Shown here one piece after another: positions 34,509 to 50,517 of a stretch of 64,000 bases of DNA. A model generated the notes under the pieces. The model was given only the letters and a program-made list of their open reading frames with translations, did no database searches and was not told the DNA's origin. The translations under genes were made by a program, and so were the position numbers. How positions within the stretch are numbered: the first letter of the stretch is position 1; every line of letters begins with the position of its first letter. Source of the stretch: Chitinophagaceae bacterium (lineage in GTDB: Bacteria; Bacteroidota; Bacteroidia; Chitinophagales; Chitinophagaceae); assembly GCA_019638615.1 (NCBI GenBank), contig JAHBTL010000001.1:372001-436000 (forward strand), given 5' to 3'.

Positions 34509-37409
34509 TTATTTATGTTCCAGCAGAACCTGCTCAATGGCTGCCAATGCTGTCTTACTGTTCTCGTCTGTATTTTTTTGAAGTGTTTGTTTTGCCTTTT
34601 GAAGAACATCTGTTGCACTTTTATCGGGTATTGCACCTATCCGCTGGATCGTACATACCAACAGGTTGGGTAATTTAGCTCCCATTGCCAACTCAATGGC
34701 CCTGCCGGGATCTGCTTCAGTCAAAGGTTCCAGCGCGTACCATACCAGGAACGGAATATTGGCATCTTTAGCATCTTCATTCCTGGCAGACAGGTTCTTT
34801 ACTATTTCCCATCTTTGAGACAGTTCCATCCTTTGAAGCGCGGAAGCAATATACAAACGCACAATGGCGGAGGAATCTTTTCCTGCCAGCGTTTCAAAAC
34901 GTTTTTGAGCGGCGGCTGATACTTTTTTATTTTCTGCCAGCAACTGCACAGCCCATGACCTTACGTACTCATTGGCATTATCCAGCAAGCCGATCAGTTG
35001 TTCTTCGCTGATGCCATTGGTAGCATGCAAAGCCCACAGGGCACGCAGCTTACGCGTGGCATCCGGATTTTCATTTAATATCTTCCAAAGCGCCTTGTGA
35101 ACATCGTCTCCCGCTTTTCTTTCCTGCAATAAACGACGGGCATGACGGACATAAAACTCATTTTCATGAAGCTGCAATGCCACCAGCTCTGCATTGGTTT
35201 TGCTGGAAAGATCAACAGGTTCCCAGGTGTCATCTTTATGAGAGATCCTGAAGATGCGACCCAGGGTTTTGTTGTGTACAGCCGGGTTTGGATTGTGACA
35301 TTGATTCTGGTCGTACCAGTCTATTACAAAAACAGACCCGTTAGGCGCTATCTGGAAGTTCAGCCACAACGACCAGGAATCGTTGCGTAAGATAAAATCC
35401 TTTCCATGCCTGCCGGTATACCCCGAGCCGGACCGCACAAGCATATCTGTATTCACCCGGTGACCATGCAGGTTATTCATATAAATGGAGCTCCTGTCTA
35501 ACCCCCATTTTTTGTTGCCAAGATAAAACATGGCACCTGCATGCGCATGCCCGCCACCTACGGAGCCGGAACGGAAATTACCGGCATGCGGACCGGCATT
35601 CCCTATCCAGTGAACATGATCCGCAATGGTTTTAATATCGTCATAAGTATAAGCGTTAAAGTGTTTTCCACCCTGGCGGAAATACCTGCCGCCCTGGATC
35701 ATGTGGTAGAGATGCGGAATTACACATGCTGTGATGAACGCATGCCCGTAATCGTTAAAATCAATTCCCCAGGGATTGCTGGTTCCATGCGCAAACACTT
35801 CAAATTCATGCCGGGTGGGATGGTACCTCCATACACCTGCGTTGATGCGTGTCCGTTCGGCATCGGGCGCGCCGGGCTTGCCTACATTGGAATGGGTGAA
35901 CACGCCATGTGTACCATACAACCATCCGTCCGGTCCCCATTTGAAAGTATTTAAGGTTTCGTGTGTGTCCTCATATCCCCATCCGTCCAGTAATATCTGT
36001 GGCTTGCCTGCCGGCTTATCGCCGCTTTCATCTATGGGAATAAACATTAAATAAGGGGCAGCACCTATCCATACACCTCCAAATCCCCATTCGATACCGC
36101 TAACAAGATTTAAACCATCGGTAAAAACTTTTTTACTATCAAGCGTGCCATTGCCATCCGTATCTTCAAAAATAAGAATACGGTCTCTTCCTTTTCCTTC
36201 CTCAGCCCTTACAGGATAAGTTTGAGATTCAACCACCCACAGCCTTCCCCTGTCGTCGAGCGCAAATGCTATTGGTTTAACGATGTCCGGTTCAGCAGCA
36301 CCCAACTGTACAGAAAATCCTTCAGGGAGCGACATTGCTTTTACCGCTTCCGGGCCGGAAAGACCCGCATGCGGCACAATATCCCTGGCGGGCAATATCA
36401 CGATATCTTCCGGGCGTAACTGGTTCTTGTATTTAGGTTGTTCCTTATGAAAACGGAAATTATCGAAAGCAATATGCGACCATACATTATCGCCTATATA
36501 GTGGATTTCCGGCACTTTTCCATTTTCCTCATCTACCAGCCGGATGTACATTTTTTTACCAATATAGGGCCGTAAATCCACTACTACCGGGCGAAAAACA
36601 GCCTGGCGCGTTCCTCTTATGTATCCTTCTGTTACAGGACCTGAAATCTTAAAAAACGGTTTCGATGAATCTTCAAGTATTAACTCAACCCTCGCTCCTT
36701 CCAGCGCGCCGCCGGCAACTTTAAAAGTGGCCCAGGGATGAGTGATCTCAAATGTTTCTGAGATAAGCGTTCCCTTCAACTGGTAATTAACCGTGCCGCC
36801 GCTGCTGACATAATAGTCGCCGTCCTGCTGCAACTGCAACGAATCGGGATATAACGGAGCAGCATCAAAAGCAACAGATCTTGGGCCGAATGCTTCGCCG
36901 CTAGCTTTCCAATCCTGGAGGCTTCCCCTCTCAAAACCGAGGTTCAAAGGCCTGCCGTTCTTGCGGGGGGATACTCCTTCATCAACTGCCGCATCTTCAA
37001 AACTTTCAACAATCTCAAAACGTCCGTTCATGATCTGCCGGTGCCCGGGGATGCTGCAGAAATAAACATCGTCTTCCTGTGCCTCTACTACCACGCTCGT
37101 GGTATCTCCCTTTTGAACGATGGGAATACTTTTCGCGCCCGATTTTTCAAATACAATATCATGCGACATCAACTCACCATTCACCAGCCGCACCCGCACT
37201 CGTTCTCCTTTTTTTGCCCGTAATACCGGGTTTCTTATTCCATCAATATCACCACCAATGCCTGTATACCCGGTCATTTTTGACTCCAGCACATATTCCC
37301 TGTCTGTTTTTACTACTACTTCTTCTTTCGCGGCAGGAGCTTTGCAACCAACGGCAAAATACAGCGAAAACATTAAGGGCAAAAGGTTTGAAAGACGAAA
37401 CAATTTCAT
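34509..37409 (-). CDS. lipoprotein: cupredoxin fused to a PVC-type dehydrogenase with HEAT-like tail
   Basis: From ATG 37409 (not 37511) the product is 966 residues with lipobox FAVGC (Cys22). Domains: a cupredoxin (about 35-135) with a type 1 copper site, His in SHDIVF and CSIPGHRQIM (Cys-x4-His-x3-Met); a galactose-binding-like beta domain (about 150-335); a PVC-type membrane-bound dehydrogenase propeller (about 365-760; 'GFSVQLGAAEPDIVKPIAFALDDRGRLWVVES', 'NPWGIDFNDYGHAF'); and HEAT-like helices (about 780-960). No CxxCH haem motif follows, unlike many relatives. It probably oxidises a sugar or alcohol in the periplasm and passes electrons to copper. It lies 115 bp downstream of susD and may share its operon. 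Confidence 0.87.
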   Translation of the reverse strand: MKLFRLSNLLPLMFSLYFAVGCKAPAAKEEVVVKTDREYVLESKMTGYTGIGGDIDGIRNPVLRAKKGERVRVRLVNGELMSHDIVFEKSGAKSIPIVQKGDTTSVVVEAQEDDVYFCSIPGHRQIMNGRFEIVESFEDAAVDEGVSPRKNGRPLNLGFERGSLQDWKASGEAFGPRSVAFDAAPLYPDSLQLQQDGDYYVSSGGTVNYQLKGTLISETFEITHPWATFKVAGGALEGARVELILEDSSKPFFKISGPVTEGYIRGTRQAVFRPVVVDLRPYIGKKMYIRLVDEENGKVPEIHYIGDNVWSHIAFDNFRFHKEQPKYKNQLRPEDIVILPARDIVPHAGLSGPEAVKAMSLPEGFSVQLGAAEPDIVKPIAFALDDRGRLWVVESQTYPVRAEEGKGRDRILIFEDTDGNGTLDSKKVFTDGLNLVSGIEWGFGGVWIGAAPYLMFIPIDESGDKPAGKPQILLDGWGYEDTHETLNTFKWGPDGWLYGTHGVFTHSNVGKPGAPDAERTRINAGVWRYHPTRHEFEVFAHGTSNPWGIDFNDYGHAFITACVIPHLYHMIQGGRYFRQGGKHFNAYTYDDIKTIADHVHWIGNAGPHAGNFRSGSVGGGHAHAGAMFYLGNKKWGLDRSSIYMNNLHGHRVNTDMLVRSGSGYTGRHGKDFILRNDSWSLWLNFQIAPNGSVFVIDWYDQNQCHNPNPAVHNKTLGRIFRISHKDDTWEPVDLSSKTNAELVALQLHENEFYVRHARRLLQERKAGDDVHKALWKILNENPDATRKLRALWALHATNGISEEQLIGLLDNANEYVRSWAVQLLAENKKVSAAAQKRFETLAGKDSSAIVRLYIASALQRMELSQRWEIVKNLSARNEDAKDANIPFLVWYALEPLTEADPGRAIELAMGAKLPNLLVCTIQRIGAIPDKSATDVLQKAKQTLQKNTDENSKTALAAIEQVLLEHK

Positions 37410-37524
37410 ACGAAAACGATACTTTTTAAATTTATAATTTGAACAGATATTAACGTTATTCCATCCTGCGCTACAGTAAAAAATTTTCCTGTATATACTC
37501 TTACTGTACATATTTCCTCAGCGA

Positions 37525-39264
37525 TCAGTAGCCAACATTTTGCTTATACACACCAAATGAATAATTTACCTGGGGCTGTGGAATAGGCATGTATTCATCG
37601 CGCCCGGCAGTAAAATGTCCATCCTTCATCCAGGGACGGCCTCTTGGAAACTCTTTTGCAAAATAAGCGTTTAACACAGATTCTGCTATCCCCCAGCGTA
37701 CAAGGTCGTACCAGCGTATCCCTTCCATCGCAAACTCAAGCCGGTTTTCAAACATAAGGGCCTTCCACGCAAATTCTTTCGTCCAGTTACAATTCACCCC
37801 GTTCTGGTATGTACTGATATGATACGATAAAGTAGGCGTTCCGTTAGCGAACTTTAACCGCCCGGTACTTTCTGCTGCCCGCTGGCGCACTTCATTTATA
37901 ATAGGCAAAGCTTCATTTTCGCGCCCCAGTTGAATCAATATTTCAGCTTTTTGAAGCAATATCCTGCTGTAACGTATAGCGATCTCATTCTTTGAGTTAT
38001 GCATCCAGAACAGGTTTACCAAACAGGCGCAATCAGACTCAACATTTTCTTTAAGTGAATTAAAATAACCATAGTTAGCCGGATCTCTTGATCCGCTGCT
38101 GTCGAACAACAGGCCAGACTGATACTTCCAGGGAAGCCCGGGAACAGCTACAGTATGGCTAATCCTGGGATCCCAGGTGTTGCTGGCAAAGTAGGTATTT
38201 TTATTCACAATCTCAGCATCATTGTAGGTATCAAACAGCGGAAGACCATTGGCATCTACCCTAAAGGCATTTACAAGATTTACCGATGCCTTGTGAAAGT
38301 CGCAACATGCAAACTGGGGCGGCCACCAGGGCGCGTTCAAAGGAGTACCAAAGTTCAAATTACCATTGGGAGTTCCGTCTCCATGCGAATACTGCCATTC
38401 AAAAATAGATTCCGGCGACTGGTTATCGTAACTGTATAAAAAGTTGATGGCAAAATCGGGCGCAAGGCTGTATTTACCACCTGAAATAATTTGATCCGCC
38501 ACACCCAATGCCTGGGTGAGCTTTTCCTGGTTAATGTTAACCAGTTGGTTCCTGTCATCCTGCTCATACGCCATCCACATTAATATTTCCAGCATTTGTG
38601 AAAGGGCCGCATATTTGGTTGGACGCCCTGCATCGGGCTGTGTTTCCGGCAGATCCGCAGCAGCTGCAGCAAAATCATCATAAATATTTTGCCATAAATA
38701 AAGATCATTGGGGGCGCCATCGGGCCTGTTAGGGATTTTCGCGATAGAATCGTTGCTCACTGTTTCATCAAAATAGGGAATCCACCTGTACCATTTTTTC
38801 AGATCAAGAAATATATACCCACGCAGGAAACGGACTTCAGCGATTCTCTGCTTCTTTTTTGGATATGCCGACTCGTCAATAGCATTTAATGCCCTTAAAG
38901 CAGTATTGCACCTTGATACACCCTGGTACTGACCATACCAAATACCATCATTGTTACCGGTGCTGGGGGTATTCAGGGAAAAAACTTCCCATTGATACCA
39001 TGGAATCTGGTCGCCAATTCCGCCGCCTCCCTTATAAGAATCGTCAGATTTAATATCCGCCAGCCAGGTTGCCTGCTTTTGGTTAATAACGCCTGCATGA
39101 GGTATCCAGGCATAGGCCGCCACTACCAATCCGTCAATATTTTCCGGCGTGCTTACATTTTCTTCTGTCACAACACCCTGCGGTGTGACATCTAAAAATT
39201 TTTTACAACTGATGATCAATATACAAACAGTTGATATCAGCATATACTTAGATAATGTTTTCAT
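37525..39264 (-). CDS. RagB/SusD-family nutrient-binding outer-membrane lipoprotein
   Basis: A 579-residue SusD-like lipoprotein (start ATG 39264; the frame extends 17 codons upstream without support). The signal KYMLISTVCILIISC ends in lipobox Cys20, followed by 'KKFLDVTPQGVVTEEN', the standard SusD opening. TPR-like helices and late motifs 'RLEFAMEGIRWYDLVRWG', 'FPRGRPW' and 'YMPIPQPQVNYS' are typical. It caps the SusC barrel and captures the ligand on the cell surface. Located 68 bp downstream of susC. The substrate cannot be read from sequence. Confidence 0.95.
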   Translation of the reverse strand: MKTLSKYMLISTVCILIISCKKFLDVTPQGVVTEENVSTPENIDGLVVAAYAWIPHAGVINQKQATWLADIKSDDSYKGGGGIGDQIPWYQWEVFSLNTPSTGNNDGIWYGQYQGVSRCNTALRALNAIDESAYPKKKQRIAEVRFLRGYIFLDLKKWYRWIPYFDETVSNDSIAKIPNRPDGAPNDLYLWQNIYDDFAAAAADLPETQPDAGRPTKYAALSQMLEILMWMAYEQDDRNQLVNINQEKLTQALGVADQIISGGKYSLAPDFAINFLYSYDNQSPESIFEWQYSHGDGTPNGNLNFGTPLNAPWWPPQFACCDFHKASVNLVNAFRVDANGLPLFDTYNDAEIVNKNTYFASNTWDPRISHTVAVPGLPWKYQSGLLFDSSGSRDPANYGYFNSLKENVESDCACLVNLFWMHNSKNEIAIRYSRILLQKAEILIQLGRENEALPIINEVRQRAAESTGRLKFANGTPTLSYHISTYQNGVNCNWTKEFAWKALMFENRLEFAMEGIRWYDLVRWGIAESVLNAYFAKEFPRGRPWMKDGHFTAGRDEYMPIPQPQVNYSFGVYKQNVGY

Positions 39265-39332
39265 ATAAATTCTTTTTTCGATGCTCAAAAATGCCTGGTA
39301 CATTAACCAGAACATGTTTTACAGTCTACGCT

Positions 39333-42300
39333 TTAAAATGACACTTCTATTCCTGCTTTTACAATCTGCGGACGCACATACGGGTTAGAGTAGTCGCTTC
39401 CTTCAGGCGTTTCAGGATCTATGCTGGTGAATTTTTTATTCTTGAAACCAAGAATATTTTCGGCCATTATAAAAAAGTACAACTTTTCCATTCCCAGCCT
39501 GGAACGTAATGATTGCGGAATGTTATAACCTAACTGAATATTTCTAAGCTTAAGATAATTACCCGGCTCTATTAAATAGGTAGACAGGCGAAGCTCATCA
39601 TTTACATTATTAAGCGACAAGCCCGGAATGGTAGAATTAGGATTGGAAAGCGACCACGCATCCAGCACACGCGTTGGATGATTGAATCCATTTTGTATCC
39701 ATACATTCCAGAAATCACTGTAGGTTTTCCAACCATTGTATACCTTAAGGCCACCTATACCCTGCCAGAACATAGAGAAGTCGAAGTTCTTATAGGTCAG
39801 ATTTACAGAAAAACCATATTCAACCTTTGGGATCGGGCCATCACCAATCCAGGTCCGGTCATAATCATAGTCTATTACGCCATCAGGATGCCCGTCCGGG
39901 CCGGAAATGTCTTTATACCTGATCCGTCCTAAACTTTTTCCGGGTTGTACTGCGGAATTGCCTACTTCATCCTGTGATTTAAAAAGCCCATCGGCAATAA
40001 AGCCATAATAAGATCCCCAGGGATGCCCGGCAATACCATCGCCCTTTAAAGCGCTACCTCCCCAGCTATACTGCACCGAAACGGGCAGGCTGTTTACAAC
40101 ATTCTTGTTATATGCTATATTCCCCCGTACCTGGTAATTAAAATTCCTGCCGGCATTTCCCTGGTATACAAGTGTAAGCTCCACGCCCCTGTTAGTCATA
40201 TTCGCAGCATTGATATAAGTATAGGCCCCTTCACCAAAAGTTCCCAGGTAAGGAGGCTGGATCAACATGCCATCGGTATATTTTTTATAGAAATCGATAG
40301 AACCCGAAATTTTCTGGCTCAGGAACCCAAAGTCTAGACCGATGTTGGTTTGTGTAGTGGTTTCCCATCGTAGATTACTATTACCTGTACGCACCCTGTT
40401 ATAGCCTGAAGGAAGGCTGGAAGTTATATTTCCGTCAATGGCATAGGATGTATAATTATAGTTGGTGGCAAAATATGTTTGAGCTGCCAGTGAACTGATA
40501 TTTGCAAGGCTTCCGTTCCTGCCCCAGCTTGCACGTATCTTCAGGTCGGAGATAAACTGGTTATCGGCCATAAAAGCTTCATTATTGATACGCCAACCGG
40601 CTGCAAAAGCAGGGAATAATGCAAACCGGTTGTTTGCACCAAATTTAGAAGACCCGTCGTACCTTAACGAACCCGATAAAAGGTATCTGGAATCAAAGGA
40701 ATAATTGAACTTTCCAAAATACGAAAGAAGGTTATACTGATCGCCACCAGCCGACATAGACATATTACCGGTAGCAGTGCTCAGGTAAGCATAATCGTAA
40801 TTCTGGAACGCAAGTGTTTGACGGGTAGCGCTCATATTTTCGCTGGTAAACTTATTTGCCTGCATACCGGCCAGCACATCCAGGTTGTGTTTCCCTGTAT
40901 TTAATTTATAGTTAAGCGTATTGGTAAGGTCCAATATGGCTTCCCGCCAATACCATTGATTGACATTGCTGATAGGATCAAATTTTCCTCCTCCTTCTAC
41001 AAAACTAAAACGAATATTCCTGTGATACCCATCAGTATATACAAGTCCCAATTGAGACCGGAGTGTAAGATTTTTTACCAGTATCAGGTTCGCGTGTACA
41101 TCTCCGAATATCTTATTGTACTTGTTGCCGTTCTTCCTGTTAAGCGTAAGCGTTCTTACCGGGTTCCAGTAATCGTCCATGCCCAAGGCCACCGCAGAAC
41201 CGCCCCAGCCACCATCTGTAGTATAAACCGGAACAATAGCAGGCATTACCATGGCATCATGCATTACATTTTGATTATTGTCTATGATATGGGCTACTTC
41301 TATATTCTCTCCTATAGACAATCGGTCACGGATCACTTTATACTCGGTATTCAACCTCACCGAAAATCTTTTAAACCCGGTGTGGATCATGATTCCCTGG
41401 TTTTGCATAAAGTTCAGCGACAACAGGGATGTTGATTTTTCATTGCCACCGGATACCGTTAGCTGGTGATTGTGCTGCACGCCCAGTTGAGAAATAGCAT
41501 CCAGCCAGTTGGTATTAGCGGCTAACATGGTTTTATCTGCATTGAGATACTGCACCGGCGTTACCTTATCCAAAACCGGAATGCCTGAAGCGTCTGTATG
41601 CCATTCATAATCGTATATCTGTGTAACCGCATTCGGATCTTGTCCGCCGTTCACGGCTGCCTGCCATAAAGCCTGTCCATATTGTTGCGTATTGAGCATT
41701 GGCACTTTATTCCAAAAAGCAGAATATCCAATGGAACCGTTGTAAGAGATTTTTGCTTTGCCCGCCTGTCCTTTTTTTGTTTGAATAAGTATAACACCCG
41801 CTCCCCCCTGTGTGCCATAGATACTGGCAGAGTAGGCGTCTTTCAAAACCTGCATCGACGCAATATTCTCCGGATTGATATCTCTTAGGTTCATGTAGCT
41901 GGGTACACCGTCGATTACAATCAACGGAGCACCGCCGTTTAAAGAAGTTAGCCCTCTTACCTGTATGCCCACATTACCTGCAGGATTACCATCTGTAGTG
42001 ACACGCATACCGGGTACAACCCCTTGCAGGGACTGCATTACGTTGGTACCGCCATGGCTCTTTGTTAGCTCCCTGGGTGTAATTACTGCCACGGCCCCGG
42101 TTAAATCTGCTTTTTTCTGTGTCATATAACCGGTTACCACTACTTCATCCAGATCAGAAGTAGCCTTCGGTTTTAGCACCACCTCAATATTAGTAGCATT
42201 TCCAACGGTCAGCTTTTGTTCAATCATTCCTACATATGATATCTCAAGCGTTTGACCTTTAAATGCGCTGATAGAAAAGATACCATCCACATCGGTGGTA

Positions 42301-42503
42301 GCTACTGTGGTGGTACCCGAAACCCTCACCGTTACTCCTCCGAGAGGATTCGAGTTGTCATCTGTTATTTTTCCTGAAATAATGCTTTGCTGCGAAAAGA
42401 CCGTTGAGGAAAAAAGAAGCAGCAGGGCAGCTAATAGTTGCATTCTGAAGCCGGATAGGACTCTCAGACGCCTAGCAATCGTTTGGCGCAAATTTAAACA
42501 CAT
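39333..42503 (-). CDS. SusC/RagA-family TonB-linked outer-membrane transporter
   Basis: A 1056-residue TonB-dependent transporter. Signal region: MQLLAALLLLFSSTVFSQQ (an internal Met at residue 21 is an alternative start). A carboxypeptidase-regulatory-like domain follows (SGKITDDNSNPLGGVTVRV ... ISYVGM), then the SusC linker 'LDEVVVTGYMTQKKADLTGAV', the plug ('LQGVVPGMRV', 'VRGLTSLNGGAPLIVIDGVP', 'IASMQVLKDAYSASIYGTQGGAGVILIQTKKG') and a 22-strand barrel ending 'RPQIVKAGIEVSF'. No STN domain and no FecR/anti-sigma pair nearby, so control is not by the usual surface-signalling route. First gene of the susC-susD-(dehydrogenase) unit. Confidence 0.95.
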   Translation of the reverse strand: MCLNLRQTIARRLRVLSGFRMQLLAALLLLFSSTVFSQQSIISGKITDDNSNPLGGVTVRVSGTTTVATTDVDGIFSISAFKGQTLEISYVGMIEQKLTVGNATNIEVVLKPKATSDLDEVVVTGYMTQKKADLTGAVAVITPRELTKSHGGTNVMQSLQGVVPGMRVTTDGNPAGNVGIQVRGLTSLNGGAPLIVIDGVPSYMNLRDINPENIASMQVLKDAYSASIYGTQGGAGVILIQTKKGQAGKAKISYNGSIGYSAFWNKVPMLNTQQYGQALWQAAVNGGQDPNAVTQIYDYEWHTDASGIPVLDKVTPVQYLNADKTMLAANTNWLDAISQLGVQHNHQLTVSGGNEKSTSLLSLNFMQNQGIMIHTGFKRFSVRLNTEYKVIRDRLSIGENIEVAHIIDNNQNVMHDAMVMPAIVPVYTTDGGWGGSAVALGMDDYWNPVRTLTLNRKNGNKYNKIFGDVHANLILVKNLTLRSQLGLVYTDGYHRNIRFSFVEGGGKFDPISNVNQWYWREAILDLTNTLNYKLNTGKHNLDVLAGMQANKFTSENMSATRQTLAFQNYDYAYLSTATGNMSMSAGGDQYNLLSYFGKFNYSFDSRYLLSGSLRYDGSSKFGANNRFALFPAFAAGWRINNEAFMADNQFISDLKIRASWGRNGSLANISSLAAQTYFATNYNYTSYAIDGNITSSLPSGYNRVRTGNSNLRWETTTQTNIGLDFGFLSQKISGSIDFYKKYTDGMLIQPPYLGTFGEGAYTYINAANMTNRGVELTLVYQGNAGRNFNYQVRGNIAYNKNVVNSLPVSVQYSWGGSALKGDGIAGHPWGSYYGFIADGLFKSQDEVGNSAVQPGKSLGRIRYKDISGPDGHPDGVIDYDYDRTWIGDGPIPKVEYGFSVNLTYKNFDFSMFWQGIGGLKVYNGWKTYSDFWNVWIQNGFNHPTRVLDAWSLSNPNSTIPGLSLNNVNDELRLSTYLIEPGNYLKLRNIQLGYNIPQSLRSRLGMEKLYFFIMAENILGFKNKKFTSIDPETPEGSDYSNPYVRPQIVKAGIEVSF

Positions 42504-43877: not shown

Positions 43878-44056
43878 AATATAATTTGAGATTTGAAATT
43901 TGAAATTCGAGATTTTATAAAACCAACTTTTGTTAAAAATATAATTTTCTTGCTTACGGAAGCAAAAAAAACAACCACTTTAAAAACAAAAATGCTTTTA
44001 GTAATTTCATGCTGTTGTATATGCTTCCCCTATCTGTAACTAAAATAACCAACAAG

Positions 44057-45226
44057 ATGAACAATCATATTTCGCGCAAGAAATTTTTACAGTATACAGC
44101 CTCAGCCGGGGCTGCCGCCCTGTTATCATCACTGGAAAGTTTTGCCATTGAAACCAAACAGCAAAAACTACGCGTGGCCGTTATTGGTTGCGGAAGTGTG
44201 AGCAACAGGTATATTCCGCATCTGCAAAGTTCGTCGCTCATAGAAATTGTCAGTCTTTGCGATATAAAGCCCGAGCGCGCCGAAGCACAAAACAAACAAT
44301 ACAATGTAGGCGCCAAAACCTACCCGGATATTGACGCCATGCTGAAAGGAGTTCCTTTTGATATGATGATCACCTTAACAGACATGCAGCAGCATGGGCA
44401 ACTAAACAGGAAAGCGCTGCTGGCAGGCAGGCACGTTTGGAGCGAAAAGCCAATGGCAAATACTTATACAGAAGGTAAGGCCCTGCTGGATCTGGCAAAG
44501 CAGAAAAAGCTGCGTATATGGGGCGCCCCGGCGGTGGTAAACAGCCCTCAGTTTGCTTTCATGAACCAGTGCATACAGGAAGGTAAATTGGGTAAACTGG
44601 CCAGTGCGCACGGGCAATACGGCCATACGGGTCCCACCTGGTCGGCCTTTTTTTATGAAAAGGGCGGTGGCAGCATGCCGGATCTTGGTGTATATAATAT
44701 GGCTACGCTCACTGCATTATTAGGCCCGGCAAAAAGCGTGATGGCCATGCTTTCCATTGTTAAGCCCGAAAGAAAGGTAGATGATAAAGGCATTGTTAAA
44801 GTAGAAGCGGAAGACAATGCGCATGTATTGATGGATCACGGCAATGGAGTGATCTCTCATGTAATGTGCGGGTTTAATTTCTTTGATCCTCACGGGCATG
44901 AAGCCGGCAATCAAACACTGCACAGCATACAGATCTTTGGTGACAAAGGCAATATCCGCCTGATAGGCTACGACTGGGAAACCAACGGTGTAATACTCGA
45001 CGACTCCTGGGATGAAGCGCCTAAATTATTAAGCACCGACAAAGGCGGGTATGTATGGCAGGAAGGCGCCACCAAAGTAGGAGAAGCATTGATAAATAAA
45101 ACGGAACCTACCATTAATGTGGAACATGCATTGCATGTGCTGGAGGTGATAGAAGCCGCGAGAAAATCATCAGCCACAGGAATGAAGATTCCTCTGAAGA
45201 GCACTTTCAAATACCCGGTATTGTAG
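44057..45226 (+). CDS. exported Gfo/Idh/MocA-family oxidoreductase
   Basis: From ATG 44057 (48 bp inside the longest frame) the product is 389 residues. The N-terminus 'HISRKKFLQYTASAGAAALLSS' resembles a Tat signal (S-R-K-K-F-L, with Lys for the second Arg), as usual for exported Gfo/Idh/MocA enzymes that fold with bound NAD(P). The Rossmann motif VIGCGSVSNRY, 'WSEKPMANT' and 'GGSMPDLGVYNMATLTALLG' are present. It should act in the periplasm on a sugar-like substrate. It is the only rightward gene in the island. Confidence 0.9.
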   Translation: MNNHISRKKFLQYTASAGAAALLSSLESFAIETKQQKLRVAVIGCGSVSNRYIPHLQSSSLIEIVSLCDIKPERAEAQNKQYNVGAKTYPDIDAMLKGVPFDMMITLTDMQQHGQLNRKALLAGRHVWSEKPMANTYTEGKALLDLAKQKKLRIWGAPAVVNSPQFAFMNQCIQEGKLGKLASAHGQYGHTGPTWSAFFYEKGGGSMPDLGVYNMATLTALLGPAKSVMAMLSIVKPERKVDDKGIVKVEAEDNAHVLMDHGNGVISHVMCGFNFFDPHGHEAGNQTLHSIQIFGDKGNIRLIGYDWETNGVILDDSWDEAPKLLSTDKGGYVWQEGATKVGEALINKTEPTINVEHALHVLEVIEAARKSSATGMKIPLKSTFKYPVL

Positions 45227-45495: not shown

Positions 45496-46542
45496 CTAAA
45501 GCCCTCCTTCTGTTTCAACAATAAAATTGCAGAAGTAGAAATTGTCGGGATCGATATTTTTTTGGCGTGCCAGCTTTTCTGCCGCGATCTGCAAAGGGAT
45601 AATATTGACAACCGGGCTAAAAAAAGACGGCAGCGCAGGTATATTGATTCCTTCTGCGCCTGCAATATCCGGTAAATCATCTCCGATCATCAATACCTTT
45701 ACTCCTTTTGCAACCAGGTCTTTTATCAAAGCGATATCATGAGCTTTCACTGCTCCTTCATCTAACCAAACTGCAATGCTCAAAGGATTTTTGATGATCT
45801 CCTGCGGACCATGACGGAAGCTGCCGGTGGTAAGTGCGGATGCAGGTTGCTTTGCAGCTTCCTGCCATAACAACATACTCTCATGGGCAGAAGCAAGGTT
45901 GATATGCCGTGCCAAAAAATATACATGCGGATTCATTTGCTGAAGCCATGCGGTTGATTCAATTTGTTGTTGCCAGGAAAGAATATCCTGTTGCAGCGTT
46001 TCAAAACAGTTTTTTAATGCTGCCTGTGTTGAAAGGGTAATCTCATTTTTTGCTATTATTTCTGCCAGCAGTTGTCCTACCAGTATAATAGCAGTATAGG
46101 TGCTTACCGATATGCTATGATCGAATGCTACATTGGTAAGCAAACAAATATCGGCCTGCTCTCCAAGAGGACTATCAACAGCATTGGTAATGGCTACTAC
46201 CGAGGCTTTGGCAGCTTTGCATTTTGTGAGCGCATTGACAATTTCGATACTCTTACCGCTACGCGATAAAAAAATTACGGTAGACGATGCCGGAATTTTC
46301 GTGTGATGCAAAAAGTCTGCTGCATCGCACAGCATTGACTGTATACCTGCCTGGTTAAAAGCCGCCTGTATAGCCAGCCCGGCACTCCAGCTTGCGCCGA
46401 TGGCGCTGATAAAAACATTTCCTGCATTTTTTATCAACCCGGTGGCCAGGTGCAGTTGCTCTTTCCCTGCTGTGCTGCTGTATTGCAACGATTGCCATAA
46501 CTGATCGGGCTGATTCAGAATATCGGTAAAGTATTTTGTCAT
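45496..46542 (-). CDS. tandem SIS-domain sugar isomerase/deglycase (GlmS-C/AgaS/FrlB-like)
   Basis: A 348-residue protein (ATG 46542) made of two SIS phosphosugar-binding domains, like the isomerase half of GlmS. First domain: 'VFISAIGASWSAGLAIQAAF' and 'VIFLSRSGKSIEIVNAL' (the Ser-rich sugar-phosphate loop). Second domain: 'HVYFLARHINLASAHESMLLWQEAAKQPASALTTGSFRHGPQEII', where the Glu and HGP are conserved in amino-sugar isomerases and fructosamine deglycases. It would convert an amino-sugar or glycated-amine phosphate. It is last in a leftward unit behind the flavoprotein and Rieske genes (95-bp gap), a combination I do not know from a described pathway. Confidence 0.85.
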   Translation of the reverse strand: MTKYFTDILNQPDQLWQSLQYSSTAGKEQLHLATGLIKNAGNVFISAIGASWSAGLAIQAAFNQAGIQSMLCDAADFLHHTKIPASSTVIFLSRSGKSIEIVNALTKCKAAKASVVAITNAVDSPLGEQADICLLTNVAFDHSISVSTYTAIILVGQLLAEIIAKNEITLSTQAALKNCFETLQQDILSWQQQIESTAWLQQMNPHVYFLARHINLASAHESMLLWQEAAKQPASALTTGSFRHGPQEIIKNPLSIAVWLDEGAVKAHDIALIKDLVAKGVKVLMIGDDLPDIAGAEGINIPALPSFFSPVVNIIPLQIAAEKLARQKNIDPDNFYFCNFIVETEGGL

Positions 46543-46637
46543 CAATGAATGTTTTTGTTTGTTACGGTTTGTCCTTTATGTTACCTGATCCTTTCAGGTC
46601 TGATACGGCACAGTAAAATTCCGGCTGCATGCATGTC

Positions 46638-48080
46638 CTAATGCTGTGCGTTCATTTCCGCTAATATTTCTTCCAGCAGCGCTGTGCAACTTTCGCAACC
46701 GGTGCCGGCATTGGTTCCTTTTTTTACTTCATCCAGCCTGGTACATCCATTCTCTTTTATATCGGCTACAATAGCGCCTTTGGTTACTCCTTCACACAAA
46801 CATATAATGGCGTTGTCGGGCAAATCAATTACACGCTGCTGCAGGCCACCGAGCCCGGGATCGATCAGTTCCGAAAGATCTGTGGCGATCTTTATTTTAT
46901 TTCTCAGCAAATTGAAAAGCGCGGAATACCCGCCTGTATCTCCTATCATCATTCCCCCTAACACATACCGGCCATCGGGCGATATGTTCACCCTTTTGTA
47001 AACACCTGCATTTTTATCTATATACAGTAAAGGGGTATGAGGCGCCGTTCCCAATGCATCTCCAAAAGAAATTACCCTGACATCCATAATCTTAAGGGTG
47101 ATCAAAAAAGCATTTCCCAAAAAGACCTTGTAGATTTTTGCCAGCCTGGCGGCTACTACTTCTGCCATTTCAAAACAGGGCGCAGCAAGCCCCCATATTT
47201 TCCCGGCCGCAAAAGCACACTCACCTATAGCATATATATCACCATCGCTGGTAAGGTTGTAGTTGTTTACTGTAATGCCGCCATGCTCTCCCAGTGTTAA
47301 CCCACATTCTCTGGCCAGTTCGTCACGTGGACGTATACCTGCTGAAATCACTACCACATCCGCCGCCAAAACTGTTCCATCGGCACATACAATCGCTTCC
47401 GTTTTTGCATCACCTGTTATCCTGTGCACCTGTTTGTTGCAGCATACATGCAAACCTGCATGAACAAGATGTTGTTGTAGCAGAGCAGCGCCTTCTTCAT
47501 CCAACTGTTTTGCCATCAGGTGAGGAGCAACCTCTATTACTGTAGTATGCAATCCCATATTCGCCAGGGCACGGGCGGCTTCCAATCCCAGGATGCCACC
47601 ACCCACCACCACTGCTTTGTGCTGAGGCTGGATATATTCTTTTATCGCTACAAGATCAGGTAACGTACGGTATACAAATACTCCCGGTATATTTTTATTT
47701 TCAATAGGGGGAACAAATGGATTTGAACCGGTTGCCAAAACCAGCCTGTCATATTTTTCGATCGTGCCTTTTGCAGTTCTTATCCATTTTTCTGGCCGGT
47801 TTATTTCAATTACCTGCTCACCGGTTTTCAATACTATTTTATGCTGCGTGTACCATGCAGCAGGGGCAAGCATCAGCTTTTCCGCTATTGGTTCAGTAAA
47901 AAAGCTGGTCAGGTTGATCCTGTCATATGCAGGGTAAGTTTCTTCCCCATATACTACCAGATCGTAGCTTTTTGACAACCGGTATTTTACAAATTTTTCG
48001 CAAAATTTAAATCCCACGGGGCCATTTCCTACCAAAACTATTTTTAACTTTTTTTCGGGAGCACTGGTTGTTTTTTTCAT
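46638..48080 (-). CDS. NirB-like FAD/NAD(P)H reductase with BFD-type [2Fe-2S] domain
   Basis: A 480-residue flavoprotein. FAD-binding motif VLVGNGPVGFKF (about 15-26), NAD(P)H-binding motif VVVGGGILGLEAARAL, and the FAD-anchoring 'DGDIYAIGECA'. The C-terminal ~60 residues are a BFD-like iron-sulfur domain with CLC...GTGCESC (Cys-x-Cys and Cys-x2-Cys). This is the N-terminal half of assimilatory nitrite reductase NirB without the sirohaem part. The stop of the upstream Rieske gene lies 1 bp before its start codon, so the two are almost certainly co-translated. The natural reading is that it feeds electrons to the Rieske oxygenase (inference). Confidence 0.88.
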   Translation of the reverse strand: MKKTTSAPEKKLKIVLVGNGPVGFKFCEKFVKYRLSKSYDLVVYGEETYPAYDRINLTSFFTEPIAEKLMLAPAAWYTQHKIVLKTGEQVIEINRPEKWIRTAKGTIEKYDRLVLATGSNPFVPPIENKNIPGVFVYRTLPDLVAIKEYIQPQHKAVVVGGGILGLEAARALANMGLHTTVIEVAPHLMAKQLDEEGAALLQQHLVHAGLHVCCNKQVHRITGDAKTEAIVCADGTVLAADVVVISAGIRPRDELARECGLTLGEHGGITVNNYNLTSDGDIYAIGECAFAAGKIWGLAAPCFEMAEVVAARLAKIYKVFLGNAFLITLKIMDVRVISFGDALGTAPHTPLLYIDKNAGVYKRVNISPDGRYVLGGMMIGDTGGYSALFNLLRNKIKIATDLSELIDPGLGGLQQRVIDLPDNAIICLCEGVTKGAIVADIKENGCTRLDEVKKGTNAGTGCESCTALLEEILAEMNAQH

Positions 48081-48081
48081 A

Positions 48082-49272
48082 TCAGCCTTTTTTCACTCCC
48101 TGCCGCAATTTATCCAGGTACCACCAGTGGAAATTCACCACATCAGCTTCCGATGGCGCCAATGGACCGGGTTCATATCTCGAAGACAATATACCTTTCT
48201 GGTTGTTTTCACACAAATGCCAGTCCTGCTCACCGGTTATTTTCCAGAACTCTGTTAATCTTTCAACATCGTAGTCAACCCCTTCTTCCGCAGCACCATT
48301 TACCAGCCAGGTTAAATCTACTGCAGAATGCAAAGCATCTATAGGGGTAATGCGCATTGCCCAGATGTAATCGCTCACTCCGTCCATCCAGAAGTTAGGA
48401 TAGTTGATCAATCCCACCACACCACTGTCATAGTGCAGATGCCCCCCCATTAAAGGAGCTGCCGGCTTACCATCTAACGTGTAGCTTTCCATGCCGGGGC
48501 GCAACGGGTACCTTGTGGCATAATGAGTGCTGCCATTTTCATTCTCGATCGTTTCAACTGCCAGCCCATTGCGTTTCCATATTTCCATGCTATCCTGCAC
48601 AACTGCTTCCCTGTCTTCCACCAGGTTAGCACCCACTACTACACTGCAGTATTCAATATGCACAGGCCCGCAATGGTAACATTCCCTGAAATTTTCACCG
48701 ATCAGCTTCCAGTTCGCATCCAGTTCATAACGCTCCCTGTACGCAACCCTGGCGTTATGCAATTGGTAAGGACGCAGGTAAGGCGACAGCTCCCGGGTTT
48801 CTTTGGTAAAGTCGGGCGCTGTATCTGCCAGGCAGATAAATATGGCACCCTCAATAAGCGACACATGTACCGGGTGCAGTCCAAAACGACTTTTATCAAA
48901 ATCATCGGGCATTAAACGTGCATTCCTGAGCCTGCCGTTTTTTTCATACACCCAGTTATGATAGGGGCATTTGAGTTTATCTTCATGCCCTCGTTCTTCG
49001 AGGCATATGGCTGAGCCGCGGTGCCTGCATGAATTGTGATGCGCATATACGCAGCCGTCATCTCCCCGGATGATGATGATGGACTGATCCAGTATAGTGA
49101 ACAAAAAATAATCACCCGCCCCGGGTATTTCACAATCGAACCCCGCAAACAACCAGCTTTTTTTCCATACATGTTCTATTTCAGCATCAAACACTTCCTG
49201 GCTGGTATAAAAATCACGCCCGAGGCTCCAGTTCTTTTTATAGGCCTGCAATAACAACTGAACTTTGTTCAT
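48082..49272 (-). CDS. Rieske oxygenase alpha subunit, GbcA-like (quaternary-amine type)
   Basis: A 396-residue Rieske non-haem iron oxygenase. The [2Fe-2S] site is Cys82-x-His84 and Cys102-x2-His105 (CRH...CPYH). The catalytic iron site is in NFRECYHCGPVH, with Glu197, His200 and His205; a bridging Glu in place of the usual Asp and the 'ECYHC' string mark the glycine-betaine, stachydrine and carnitine subgroup. 'FYTSQEVFDAEIEHVWKKSW' and 'CRHRGSAICLEERGH' also match that group. It would oxidise an N-methyl or similar C-N-linked group, releasing formaldehyde. Flanked by a dedicated reductase and an MFS importer. No beta subunit, as expected for this type. Confidence 0.9.
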   Translation of the reverse strand: MNKVQLLLQAYKKNWSLGRDFYTSQEVFDAEIEHVWKKSWLFAGFDCEIPGAGDYFLFTILDQSIIIIRGDDGCVYAHHNSCRHRGSAICLEERGHEDKLKCPYHNWVYEKNGRLRNARLMPDDFDKSRFGLHPVHVSLIEGAIFICLADTAPDFTKETRELSPYLRPYQLHNARVAYRERYELDANWKLIGENFRECYHCGPVHIEYCSVVVGANLVEDREAVVQDSMEIWKRNGLAVETIENENGSTHYATRYPLRPGMESYTLDGKPAAPLMGGHLHYDSGVVGLINYPNFWMDGVSDYIWAMRITPIDALHSAVDLTWLVNGAAEEGVDYDVERLTEFWKITGEQDWHLCENNQKGILSSRYEPGPLAPSEADVVNFHWWYLDKLRQGVKKG

Positions 49273-49326
49273 ATAACAACAGTTTTATCGGTTCATAATT
49301 TTAATGCCCCCGGCCATTTATTTTCA

Positions 49327-50517
49327 TCATTGCTGCATTGCTACGGATTTATTTTTTCTTACCCGCATCAAAAACAAAAAAATTACGGCCACCGCCCATA
49401 CCACCACACTGAATATACCAAAAATCTGTCGCATTGGCAATGACTCATACAACCTTCCTGTAAGAATATTTCCCAAAACAGCCCCGGCGCCAAAATACAT
49501 GGCCCATAACAGCGACTGGCCGGTGGTTCGCCATGCTGCAGGCACTTTATGGTTCACAAACTCAACACTGGCAATCCACAGCAATGTCCAGGTAACACCA
49601 TTGAGGGTTTCAATTCCAATCACCATATAGGGATTACCATTCAGGTAATACAACAACAACCGCACCGCAGTTCCCCAAATGGCAATTTGTAAAACATTGT
49701 CCGCGCTTGTTTTGCGCAGCAGCCAGGCGGCAATAAAATAAAATGGTAATTCACTCAATGCCTGTATACCAATCGCCGTTCCGGTAACGGAAGAGGAGGC
49801 GCCGATCTCACGCATGTATACGGTCAAGAAAAAAGAGCTGGCAGACTGTGCAATGGAGACCACCATCACTATGATCAAAAAGCTCAGCAATAGCTTATTT
49901 TCCAGTGTTTGCCGCAACCCTTTAAAACTGATATCTGCTGCCGAAACAGAAGAGATGTACAGAGCAAGTCCTCTTGCGGCAATCCATGTAATAAAAAGAA
50001 ATGCCGCTCCCAGGTAGAACACCACATCGCTGCCATATGTTTCAGTAAGCAACCCGGTAAGCAATGCTCCTGTTCCAAAGCCCGGAGCACCCCAGAATCG
50101 CAGGTTGCTGTATGATGTATTTTGCTGCCGTGCTGTATAATCAAGCGTTAAGCTATCCAGCAAAGGCAATACCGGTGTTTGAAAAAGAGCAAGCAAAAAA
50201 GTAGATGATCCGATTGAAAATTTTCCTTTGGCAACAAAAGGAAAAACAGCAAACAACAAAGCGGCTGCCAGAACTGCTATATTAAAGCAAAGCATCTTCC
50301 CCTTTTTGTCTGCCATTACTCCCCAGAAAGGTTGTACCACCAGCATTACCAGCCAGGGAATAGCAGATATATATCCCATTACAGAACCGCTCATCCCTTT
50401 ATCCTCCAGCCATAAATTAAAATTAGGCATCCAGCAACCCAATGAGGCAAAGCCAAAAAAGAATACGGCCCTGAACAGGTTGCTTTCTTTATTTCCTATG
50501 GTGAATGATGATTTCAA
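49327..50517 (-). CDS. MFS transporter (PPP/nucleoside-H+-symporter-like)
   Basis: A 396-residue, 12-helix major-facilitator protein. The first helix 'LFRAVFFFGFASLGCWMPNF' with 'LWLEDKGMSGSVMGYISAIPWLVMLVVQPFWGVMADKKGK' is the MFS_1-like/3-phenylpropionate-transporter (HcaT) type, related to LacY-like sugar symporters. The only plausible start is TTG 50517, which lies inside the word AAATTTCAAATCTCAAATTG. It is the first gene of the MFS-Rieske-reductase-SIS unit (54 bp before the Rieske gene) and should import the substrate into the cytoplasm. Confidence 0.88.
   Translation of the reverse strand: MKSSFTIGNKESNLFRAVFFFGFASLGCWMPNFNLWLEDKGMSGSVMGYISAIPWLVMLVVQPFWGVMADKKGKMLCFNIAVLAAALLFAVFPFVAKGKFSIGSSTFLLALFQTPVLPLLDSLTLDYTARQQNTSYSNLRFWGAPGFGTGALLTGLLTETYGSDVVFYLGAAFLFITWIAARGLALYISSVSAADISFKGLRQTLENKLLLSFLIIVMVVSIAQSASSFFLTVYMREIGASSSVTGTAIGIQALSELPFYFIAAWLLRKTSADNVLQIAIWGTAVRLLLYYLNGNPYMVIGIETLNGVTWTLLWIASVEFVNHKVPAAWRTTGQSLLWAMYFGAGAVLGNILTGRLYESLPMRQIFGIFSVVVWAVAVIFLFLMRVRKNKSVAMQQ

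Follow-up and report, generated by a model that had tools for sequence, protein, structure and literature searches.

A conserved Bacteroidota operon pairing a quaternary-amine-type Rieske oxygenase with amino-sugar enzymes, a candidate route for N-methylated amino-sugar breakdown

We analysed a stretch of 64,000 nucleotides (the window; contig positions 372001-436000 in a 7.2-Mb genome) from a Chitinophagaceae bacterium, in which four adjacent genes encode a Rieske oxygenase, a flavoprotein that resembles half of NirB, a tandem-SIS phosphosugar protein and an MFS (major facilitator superfamily) importer. Together they probably make up the central part of an operon for the breakdown of a 2-amino-2-deoxy-hexose, or a glycoside of it, that is N-methylated and most likely quaternary (trimethylammonio), a reading to which we give a probability of about 0.58. 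From the gene content, synteny, phylogeny and conserved residues, which are read directly from the sequences, we infer what the substrate is, in which order the steps run, which protein supplies the electrons and how many methyl groups are removed. The features are as follows.

49327..50517, minus strand: MFS protein (MFS_1_like; LacY/nucleoside-symporter like), presumed to act in the import direction; TTG start; from Pfam, NCBIfam and synteny.
48082..49272, minus strand: Rieske non-haem iron oxygenase of an amino-sugar-associated clade beside group Vb (GbcA/Stc2); ATG start; from Pfam, NCBIfam, PDB match, alignment and tree.
48688..48690, minus strand: codon of Phe195, the equivalent of CntA Tyr203 (pi-cation residue); from the alignment, with residue roles as in excerpts of PMC7948474 and PMC10952381.
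46638..48080, minus strand: FAD/NAD(P)H reductase with a C-terminal BFD [2Fe-2S] domain (half-NirB), the predicted electron donor of the oxygenase; ATG start.
45496..46545, minus strand: tandem-SIS, GlmS/NagB-II-like phosphosugar protein, a predicted amino-sugar-phosphate deaminase; TTG start, or ATG at 46542.
44009..45226, plus strand: Gfo/Idh/MocA oxidoreductase, convergent to the operon, with an N-terminus that looks Tat-like by eye; from Pfam, NCBIfam and synteny.

An earlier sequence-only reading of this DNA had described four leftward genes with gaps of 54, 1 and 95 bp. The open reading frame (ORF) coordinates agree, with 54 bp between MFS and Rieske, 1 bp between Rieske and flavoprotein, and 95 bp (ATG) or 92 bp (TTG) between flavoprotein and SIS. 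Pfam matches the products to MFS_1_like (195 bits) and LacY_symp (59), to Rieske (57) and Ring_hydroxyl_A (108), to Pyr_redox_2 (176) and Fer2_BFD (51.8, cut-off 26), and to SIS (66).

A Rieske scan with one genome per species returned 38 loci: 8 of clade 1 (60-94% identity to the window Rieske), 18 of clade 2 (52-57%) and 12 distant; one extra locus (L080, genome G158) raises clade 2 to 19. Any match to the window Rieske (E 1e-3) occurs in 51 of 244 genomes of the family, and 11 of the 244, the window's own included, have one of at least 54% identity. Short family loci (L003-L031) were kept out of the neighbour counts, which are lower bounds because several contigs are short. MFS, Rieske, half-NirB and SIS genes occur together in all eight clade-1 loci outside the window, which belong to Chitinophagaceae plus one Prolixibacteraceae. 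The four are neighbours in each of these loci, as they should be if the earlier operon call, for which conserved synteny had been set as a check, is right; the grouping exceeds chance. Another 20 loci, whose Rieske proteins are of other kinds (L058-L069, L078 and L088-L094; mostly from other phyla, some of 6-12 kb), served as a loose control and were searched with tblastn at E 1e-8. All 20 gave a Rieske match, two a weak SDR match and two a DMGDH match, the DMGDH query itself coming from one of these two loci; there were zero matches to MFS, half-NirB, SIS, PfkB, NagB or ROK.

The four-gene core was therefore confirmed, and relatives show that the operon is larger than first described, with SusCD, Gfo/Idh and kinase genes. 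Among the eight clade-1 loci, SusD is found in 7, SusC in 6, FecR in 6 and an ECF sigma factor in 3; Gfo2 is present in 6/8 and a related Gfo in the other two, and a sugar kinase in 6/8 (PfkB in 5, ROK in 1). The longest form runs FecR-SusC-SusD-Gfo-MFS-Rieske-reductase-PfkB-SIS (for example L035); the window and L032 hold the short core only. The MFS homologue is 49-91% identical in 8/8 clade-1 loci and 28-33% in 19/19 clade-2 loci. The Gfo/Idh/MocA gene at 44009..45226 is a probable member of the wider neighbourhood: its orthologue lies beside the operon in two clade-1 loci (92-96%) and occurs in 7/19 clade-2 loci (77-82%). A PhyH-family (phytanoyl-CoA dioxygenase) gene was also seen near the operon in three of the eight clade-1 loci (L033, L035 and L036).

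The oxygenase had been called a member of the quaternary-amine type, and it stays beside GbcA and Stc2 both in the tree and in the PDB scores. Its best NCBIfam match is GbcA (NF058607; 348.9 bits, under the curated cut-off of 670), and its nearest PDB entries are 3n0q (putative dioxygenase, 306 bits) and 3vca and 4qup (290 bits), which we take to be Stc2, with CntA at about 112 bits. Sequence and alignment contain the Rieske CxH...CxxH motif, the iron ligands His200, His205 and Asp350, and the bridging Glu197, in keeping with the iron site and ECYHC string reported earlier. That string holds the pair Cys198/Cys201, and CYHC is found in the window protein and in the 28 rows of its two sets. A Cys-x-x-Cys beside the iron site is a feature of some group V members (PMC10952381, excerpts). 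The window protein thus resembles GbcA and Stc2 in length, in the CxH/CxxH and His-His-Asp sites, in the bridging Glu and in the Cys pair, but differs from them in Phe at the 203 position, the half-NirB donor, the amino-sugar neighbours and a score below the GbcA cut-off. With the group Va enzymes CntA, choline monooxygenase and OxyBAC it shares the Cys pair and the aromatic residue at the pi-cation place, although its score with CntA is much below that with Stc2.

Excerpts of PMC7948474 and PMC10952381 state that in group Va (CntA and the choline and benzalkonium enzymes) an aromatic residue at CntA position 203 holds the cation, and that group Vb (GbcA, Stc2) is without that aromatic, the iron of Stc2 being bound by the substrate carboxylate. 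Phe occupies the CntA Tyr203 place in the window protein and in 28/28 rows of the two Bacteroidota sets; the 8-row sister, Stc2-like set has Asn in seven and Ala in one. The alignment retained 56 rows after removal of ORFs shorter than 330 aa, under 60 bits or under 45% query cover and of rows identical over residues 60-300. The tree has 34 rows, of which 32 come from the alignment and two (L088 and L089) from annotated places. In this tree, which the program flagged for long branches, two rows of the Stc2-like set among them, the 19 Bacteroidota rows linked to amino-sugar genes group together as a single clade (98/96), next to the Stc2-like set of 8 rows (99/98) that takes in the genome's own second Rieske. 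By sequence comparison, then, the Rieske proteins of both Bacteroidota sets form a clade beside GbcA/Stc2-type enzymes, and the phylogeny proposed earlier as a check places the oxygenase next to the quaternary-amine group and not in an unrelated class. The window protein lies beside the Stc2-like set, not inside it, and carries Phe, not Asn or Ala, which sets it apart from group Vb; it has the aromatic residue of group Va, yet its similarity lies with Vb proteins, in a tree built without a CntA row. A protein that resembles group Vb overall but binds the cation in the manner of group Va would fit a quaternary amine that has no alpha-carboxylate, for example a trimethylammonio sugar.

The partner of the oxygenase had been described as a half-NirB with a BFD domain, and this arrangement is kept in 9/9 clade-1 operons, the window counted, as are the BFD cysteines CxC...CxxC. 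In these nine operons at most 21 bp separate the reductase gene from the Rieske gene, or the two open frames overlap (with unrefined starts). In NCBIfam the flavoprotein is matched best by NirB, over positions 1-470 of the 794 in that model (463 bits, cut-off 578). The protein shares the FAD/NAD and BFD part with NirB, but it has 480 aa, is without the sirohaem/[4Fe-4S] part and is paired with a Rieske oxygenase. A nitrite reductase was rejected, since the protein does not extend into the C-terminal portion of the NirB model; a separate NirB-like open frame of 860 aa exists on another contig (C23) of the genome. The half-NirB is 46% identical to the N-terminal half of that frame and is therefore likely to derive from NirB. 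Known oxygenases of this type had been said to use another reductase, which matches the annotated Pseudomonadota Vb-type relatives: in 4/5 the next gene is of another kind (hybrid-cluster NAD(P)-dependent oxidoreductase, FAD-binding oxidoreductase or PDR/VanB family oxidoreductase), and the fifth has a gene of the flavin reductase family about 0.9 kb further on. The half-NirB presumably passes electrons to the Rieske oxygenase.

Pfam marks a single SIS domain in the fourth protein, and the protein as a whole (residues 6-335) can be aligned with the isomerase portion of GlmS; this alignment and the fold comparison uphold the tandem arrangement proposed earlier. All NCBIfam cut-offs are missed (GlmS 127.5/418, NagB-II 57/430, GlmD 48/580, FrlB 36.5/430). 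With residues numbered as we take them to be in GlmS, the orthologues keep the equivalents of Glu481, Glu488 and His504, and 9/9 end in a conserved GGL C-terminus. The fold and these three residues are common to the GlmS isomerase domain, NagB-II/GlmD and FrlB; the window protein differs from all of them in its scores, in the absence of Lys485 and Lys603, and in its own GGL end. The AlphaFold model has a predicted local distance difference test (pLDDT) score of 77, falling below 50 in the two stretches (residues 211-221 and 224-251) where the catalytic Glu and His lie. Its best structural matches are 3fj1 (putative phosphosugar isomerase) and GlmS isomerase domains (E ~1e-15, TM ~0.7, root-mean-square deviation ~6 Å). 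A search of 395 Bacteroidota genomes at E 1e-20 gave seven matches: the window protein, one 29% homologue (L071/L077) and five full-size GlmS. The nearest SIS homologue outside this operon type (L077, G609:C58; 29-30%) lies with amidohydrolase, GlcNAc-epimerase, NagB-like, ROK and SSF transporter genes, in what is a locus of amino-sugar type. The protein had been taken for an isomerase that fits amino-sugar breakdown; the fit to amino sugars stood, and the protein is better read as an amine-releasing, GlmS/NagB-II-like enzyme. Because it is GlmS-like and a NagB-type deaminase replaces it in clade 2, an amine-releasing step on a phosphorylated amino sugar appears more likely than isomerisation, and a plain sugar isomerase is not favoured.

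Clade 2 (L040-L057 and L080) joins the same kind of oxygenase to a partly different set of partners: MFS in 19 of 19 loci, a NagB-type deaminase in 18, ROK in 10, SDR in 9 and Gfo in 7. Half-NirB was counted among the neighbours in 0/19. The NagB of L050 scores 138 bits against 2bkv, presumably B. subtilis NagB. The catalytic Asp, His and Glu, which we take to be D72, H143 and E148 in E. coli NagB, are kept in 18/19 NagB-type proteins of clade 2 and genome G634; the gene of L045 (L045:11117-11801) is split over two frames in the record and its catalytic stretch is missing. Half-NirB was searched for in 13 genomes altogether, nine of them clade-2-only. Five of these nine had no match at E 1e-30, three matched NirB-like open frames of 803-847 aa and one gave a partial 34% match; half-NirB as a general clade-2 donor is not supported. 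Genes for a stand-alone MetE-like methyltransferase, a UlaG-like metallo-hydrolase and a PRK02947-type SIS protein are each found in 10/19 clade-2 loci (e.g. L050:11336-15034).

The Prolixibacteraceae operon (L039, genome G625) reads SusC-SusD-Gfo-MFS-MttB-ROK-reductase-Rieske-SIS and thus includes an MttB-like gene, a single open frame with no amber codon. Its product scores 77 bits against Pfam MTTB (cut-off 25), which the protein of a second genome, G634, passes too. In G634, a relative, the neighbours of a 71% MttB orthologue are Gfo2 (64%), MFS (50%) and genes for a NagB-type protein, a DeoR regulator and a GH123 hexosaminidase; a search of that genome with the window Rieske gave no match at E 1e-3. 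Of the functions recognised, clade 1, L039, the G634 locus and almost every clade-2 locus have in common an MFS and a deaminase of amino-sugar type, either SIS or NagB. The non-pyrrolysine MttB proteins that have been characterised act as methyltransferases on quaternary amines (PMC8604678, excerpts). L039 and G634 would belong to this superfamily (MtgB, MtpB, MtcB, MtyB) by the Pfam cut-off; the L039 protein differs from the solved members in its low scores and in sitting in an amino-sugar type operon. Free corrinoid proteins of 221-222 residues are present in both genomes, that of G634 next to a RACo-type activator and MtaB. At E 1e-20, MttB matched 0/395 genomes of the Bacteroidota sample, 1/344 in G625's order (G625 itself) and 3/140 in its family including itself, one only 24% identical. 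Oxygen-dependent and corrinoid-dependent demethylases thus seem to replace each other beside amino-sugar genes. A dedicated trimethyl amino-sugar pathway in two interchangeable forms, aerobic with Rieske and truncated NirB and anaerobic with an MttB-type corrinoid methyltransferase, is a tentative proposal that we hold at somewhat less than even odds. DeoR, NagB-type and GH123 genes were observed upstream of Gfo2, MFS and the MttB-like gene at L086:3110-7116, in a Prolixibacteraceae-family genome.

The genome has a separate locus (L078, contig C41) in which a GbcA-like Rieske paralogue (37% identity) stands with FAD/GcvT-type, DAO-type, Aldedh and GMC genes; by family these would be the makings of a choline-betaine-sarcosine route. 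FAD/GcvT, DAO, Aldedh, GMC and APC queries from this locus had no match (E 1e-8) in 30 amino-sugar-type loci, which represent 29 different places (L085 is the same place as L039). One NagA-type amidohydrolase query had no match in 29 of the 30 loci, its own locus being the exception. An ordinary glycine-betaine operon was rejected, given this second locus and a window Rieske that groups apart from the Stc2/GbcA-type rows.

The proposed route would begin with SusC/SusD, present in most relatives' operons (not of this kind beside the window copy), carrying the glycoside across the outer membrane. The exported Gfo/Idh oxidoreductase may act on the glycoside in the periplasm, and the LacY-like MFS protein would take up the sugar. 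Electrons would pass from NAD(P)H to FAD, to the BFD [2Fe-2S] cluster of the half-NirB and on to the Rieske oxygenase, which would hydroxylate an N-methyl group that then leaves as formaldehyde. Phe195 would hold the cationic nitrogen, since the proposed substrate offers the iron no alpha-carboxylate. After phosphorylation of the sugar by a kinase (PfkB or ROK), the GlmS-like SIS enzyme, or NagB in the second set, would free the remaining amine to give a ketose phosphate. The idea of import and N-dealkylation of a methylated amine joined to a sugar survives as N-dealkylation joined to amino-sugar enzymes, with the glycated betaine reduced to a weaker alternative. Among the literature matches listed, with most subscription papers outside reach, no described pathway joins Rieske N-dealkylation with amino-sugar enzymes, and none has this gene set, as had been stated earlier. 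Rhizopine (methyl-inosamine) catabolism by the moc genes links an oxygenase with Gfo/Idh and sugar-type genes; unlike the half-NirB, kinase and deaminase here, it uses a separate ferredoxin and reductase. TMG-chitotriomycin of Streptomyces anulatus is a documented natural trimethylglucosamine compound (PMC5480352, excerpts).

Several observations weigh against catabolism of a trimethylammonio sugar by these genes. All functions, and the substrate, are predicted here from sequence, and N,N,N-trimethylglucosamine is documented in the literature consulted only in the Streptomyces inhibitor. The Lys485 and Lys603 equivalents are missing in the SIS orthologues (Lys603 in 9/9), so that the chemistry may differ from glucosamine 6-phosphate deamination. 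There is no operon kinase in the window, L032 or L034; outside the operon, the closest PfkB match that this genome offers is just 32%, although it has eight ROK-family matches. An aromatic residue (Tyr/Phe) also stands at the 203 place in 22/28 other alignment rows, 15 of an unrelated Rieske type without the Cys pair and five distant rows with it, so that it sets the protein apart from its closest relatives only. Clade 2 is weakly supported as a clade (88/77) and is without half-NirB. The MttB linkage comes from two genomes; the L039 protein is weakly like solved members (25-27 bits; MtgB 27), the AlphaFold model of the MttB-like protein has a pLDDT of 35, and no kinase was recognised in the G634 locus. 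The absence of Rieske from G634 is no proof, because the completeness of that genome is not given. B12-binding proteins of 226-291 residues (open frame) also occur in tested family members without an MttB-like protein, which makes the corrinoid proteins permissive evidence only.

Three other explanations use the same genes differently. The Rieske enzyme might hydroxylate the nitrogen-bearing sugar carbon and free trimethylamine (or dimethylamine) and a keto sugar. We regard this as unlikely: the protein groups beside the demethylating group Vb, an MttB-type methyltransferase in the Rieske's place points to methyl removal, and a deaminase-type gene (SIS/NagB), needless after such cleavage, is kept in 8/8 clade-1 and 18/19 clade-2 loci. 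The case for it is the Phe at the group Va position together with CntA, which itself breaks C-N and frees trimethylamine (PMC10952381 and PMC7948474, excerpts). More doubtful is that the substrate is a glycated amine (Amadori compound), with the SIS protein as a FrlB/FraB-like deglycase beside a PfkB kinase and the Rieske trimming the amine part. PfkB with SIS is the fructoselysine arrangement, and weak NCBIfam matches link the SIS protein to FrlB (36.5 bits) and the PfkB to fructoselysine 6-kinase (58 bits). These matches are outscored by GlmS (127.5 bits) and NagB-II (57) for SIS and by inositol-type and ribokinase models for PfkB; moreover, the second set and G634 carry NagB-type genes with catalytic residues kept, and the G634 locus has a GH123 hexosaminidase.

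The nitrogen could also be that of choline or phosphocholine on an aminoglycan, with the Rieske acting on the choline head while the remaining genes deal with the amino sugar. GlcNAc/GalNAc glycans can bear phosphocholine, and 10/19 clade-2 loci have UlaG-like metallo-hydrolases. We find this improbable, the least favoured of the three: neither the choline/betaine-type queries (Aldedh, GMC, FAD/GcvT, DAO, APC) in the 30 loci, phosphodiesterases not being among the searches, nor the NagA-type query in 29 loci found a match. Choline monooxygenases share the aromatic residue (PMC7948474, excerpts), which agrees with such a substrate. The trimethylammonio amino sugar remains the preferred substrate, and the operon type, conserved and one for which no description was found, is best read as a form of the group V Rieske systems in which the electron donor is unusual.

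If this reading is correct, quaternary-amine oxygenases would extend from betaines, carnitine and choline to sugars, and group V would gain a new type of electron donor, the half-NirB. Methyl removal from nitrogen would open a methylated amino sugar to ordinary amino-sugar enzymes. An unrecognised environmental pool of N-methylated amino sugars would be predicted. If the two interchangeable forms exist, trimethylated amino sugars would be a regular environmental source of carbon and nitrogen, and more than an oddity confined to a single antibiotic-like compound. With one version of the pathway dependent on oxygen and its counterpart on a corrinoid, the substrate would be directly testable by growth and assay.

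For the four-gene operon, a promoter scan gave 9 sites against 11.5 expected from shuffles, and the 13 terminator-like sites (6.6 expected) all fall inside the four genes and were not used. A PHROGs comparison gave no match. Next to the operon, window positions 34509-42503 hold a SusC-type gene (Pfam, 39333-42503) and two more large ORFs; this SusC is only about 28-31% like the SusC in the relatives' operons.

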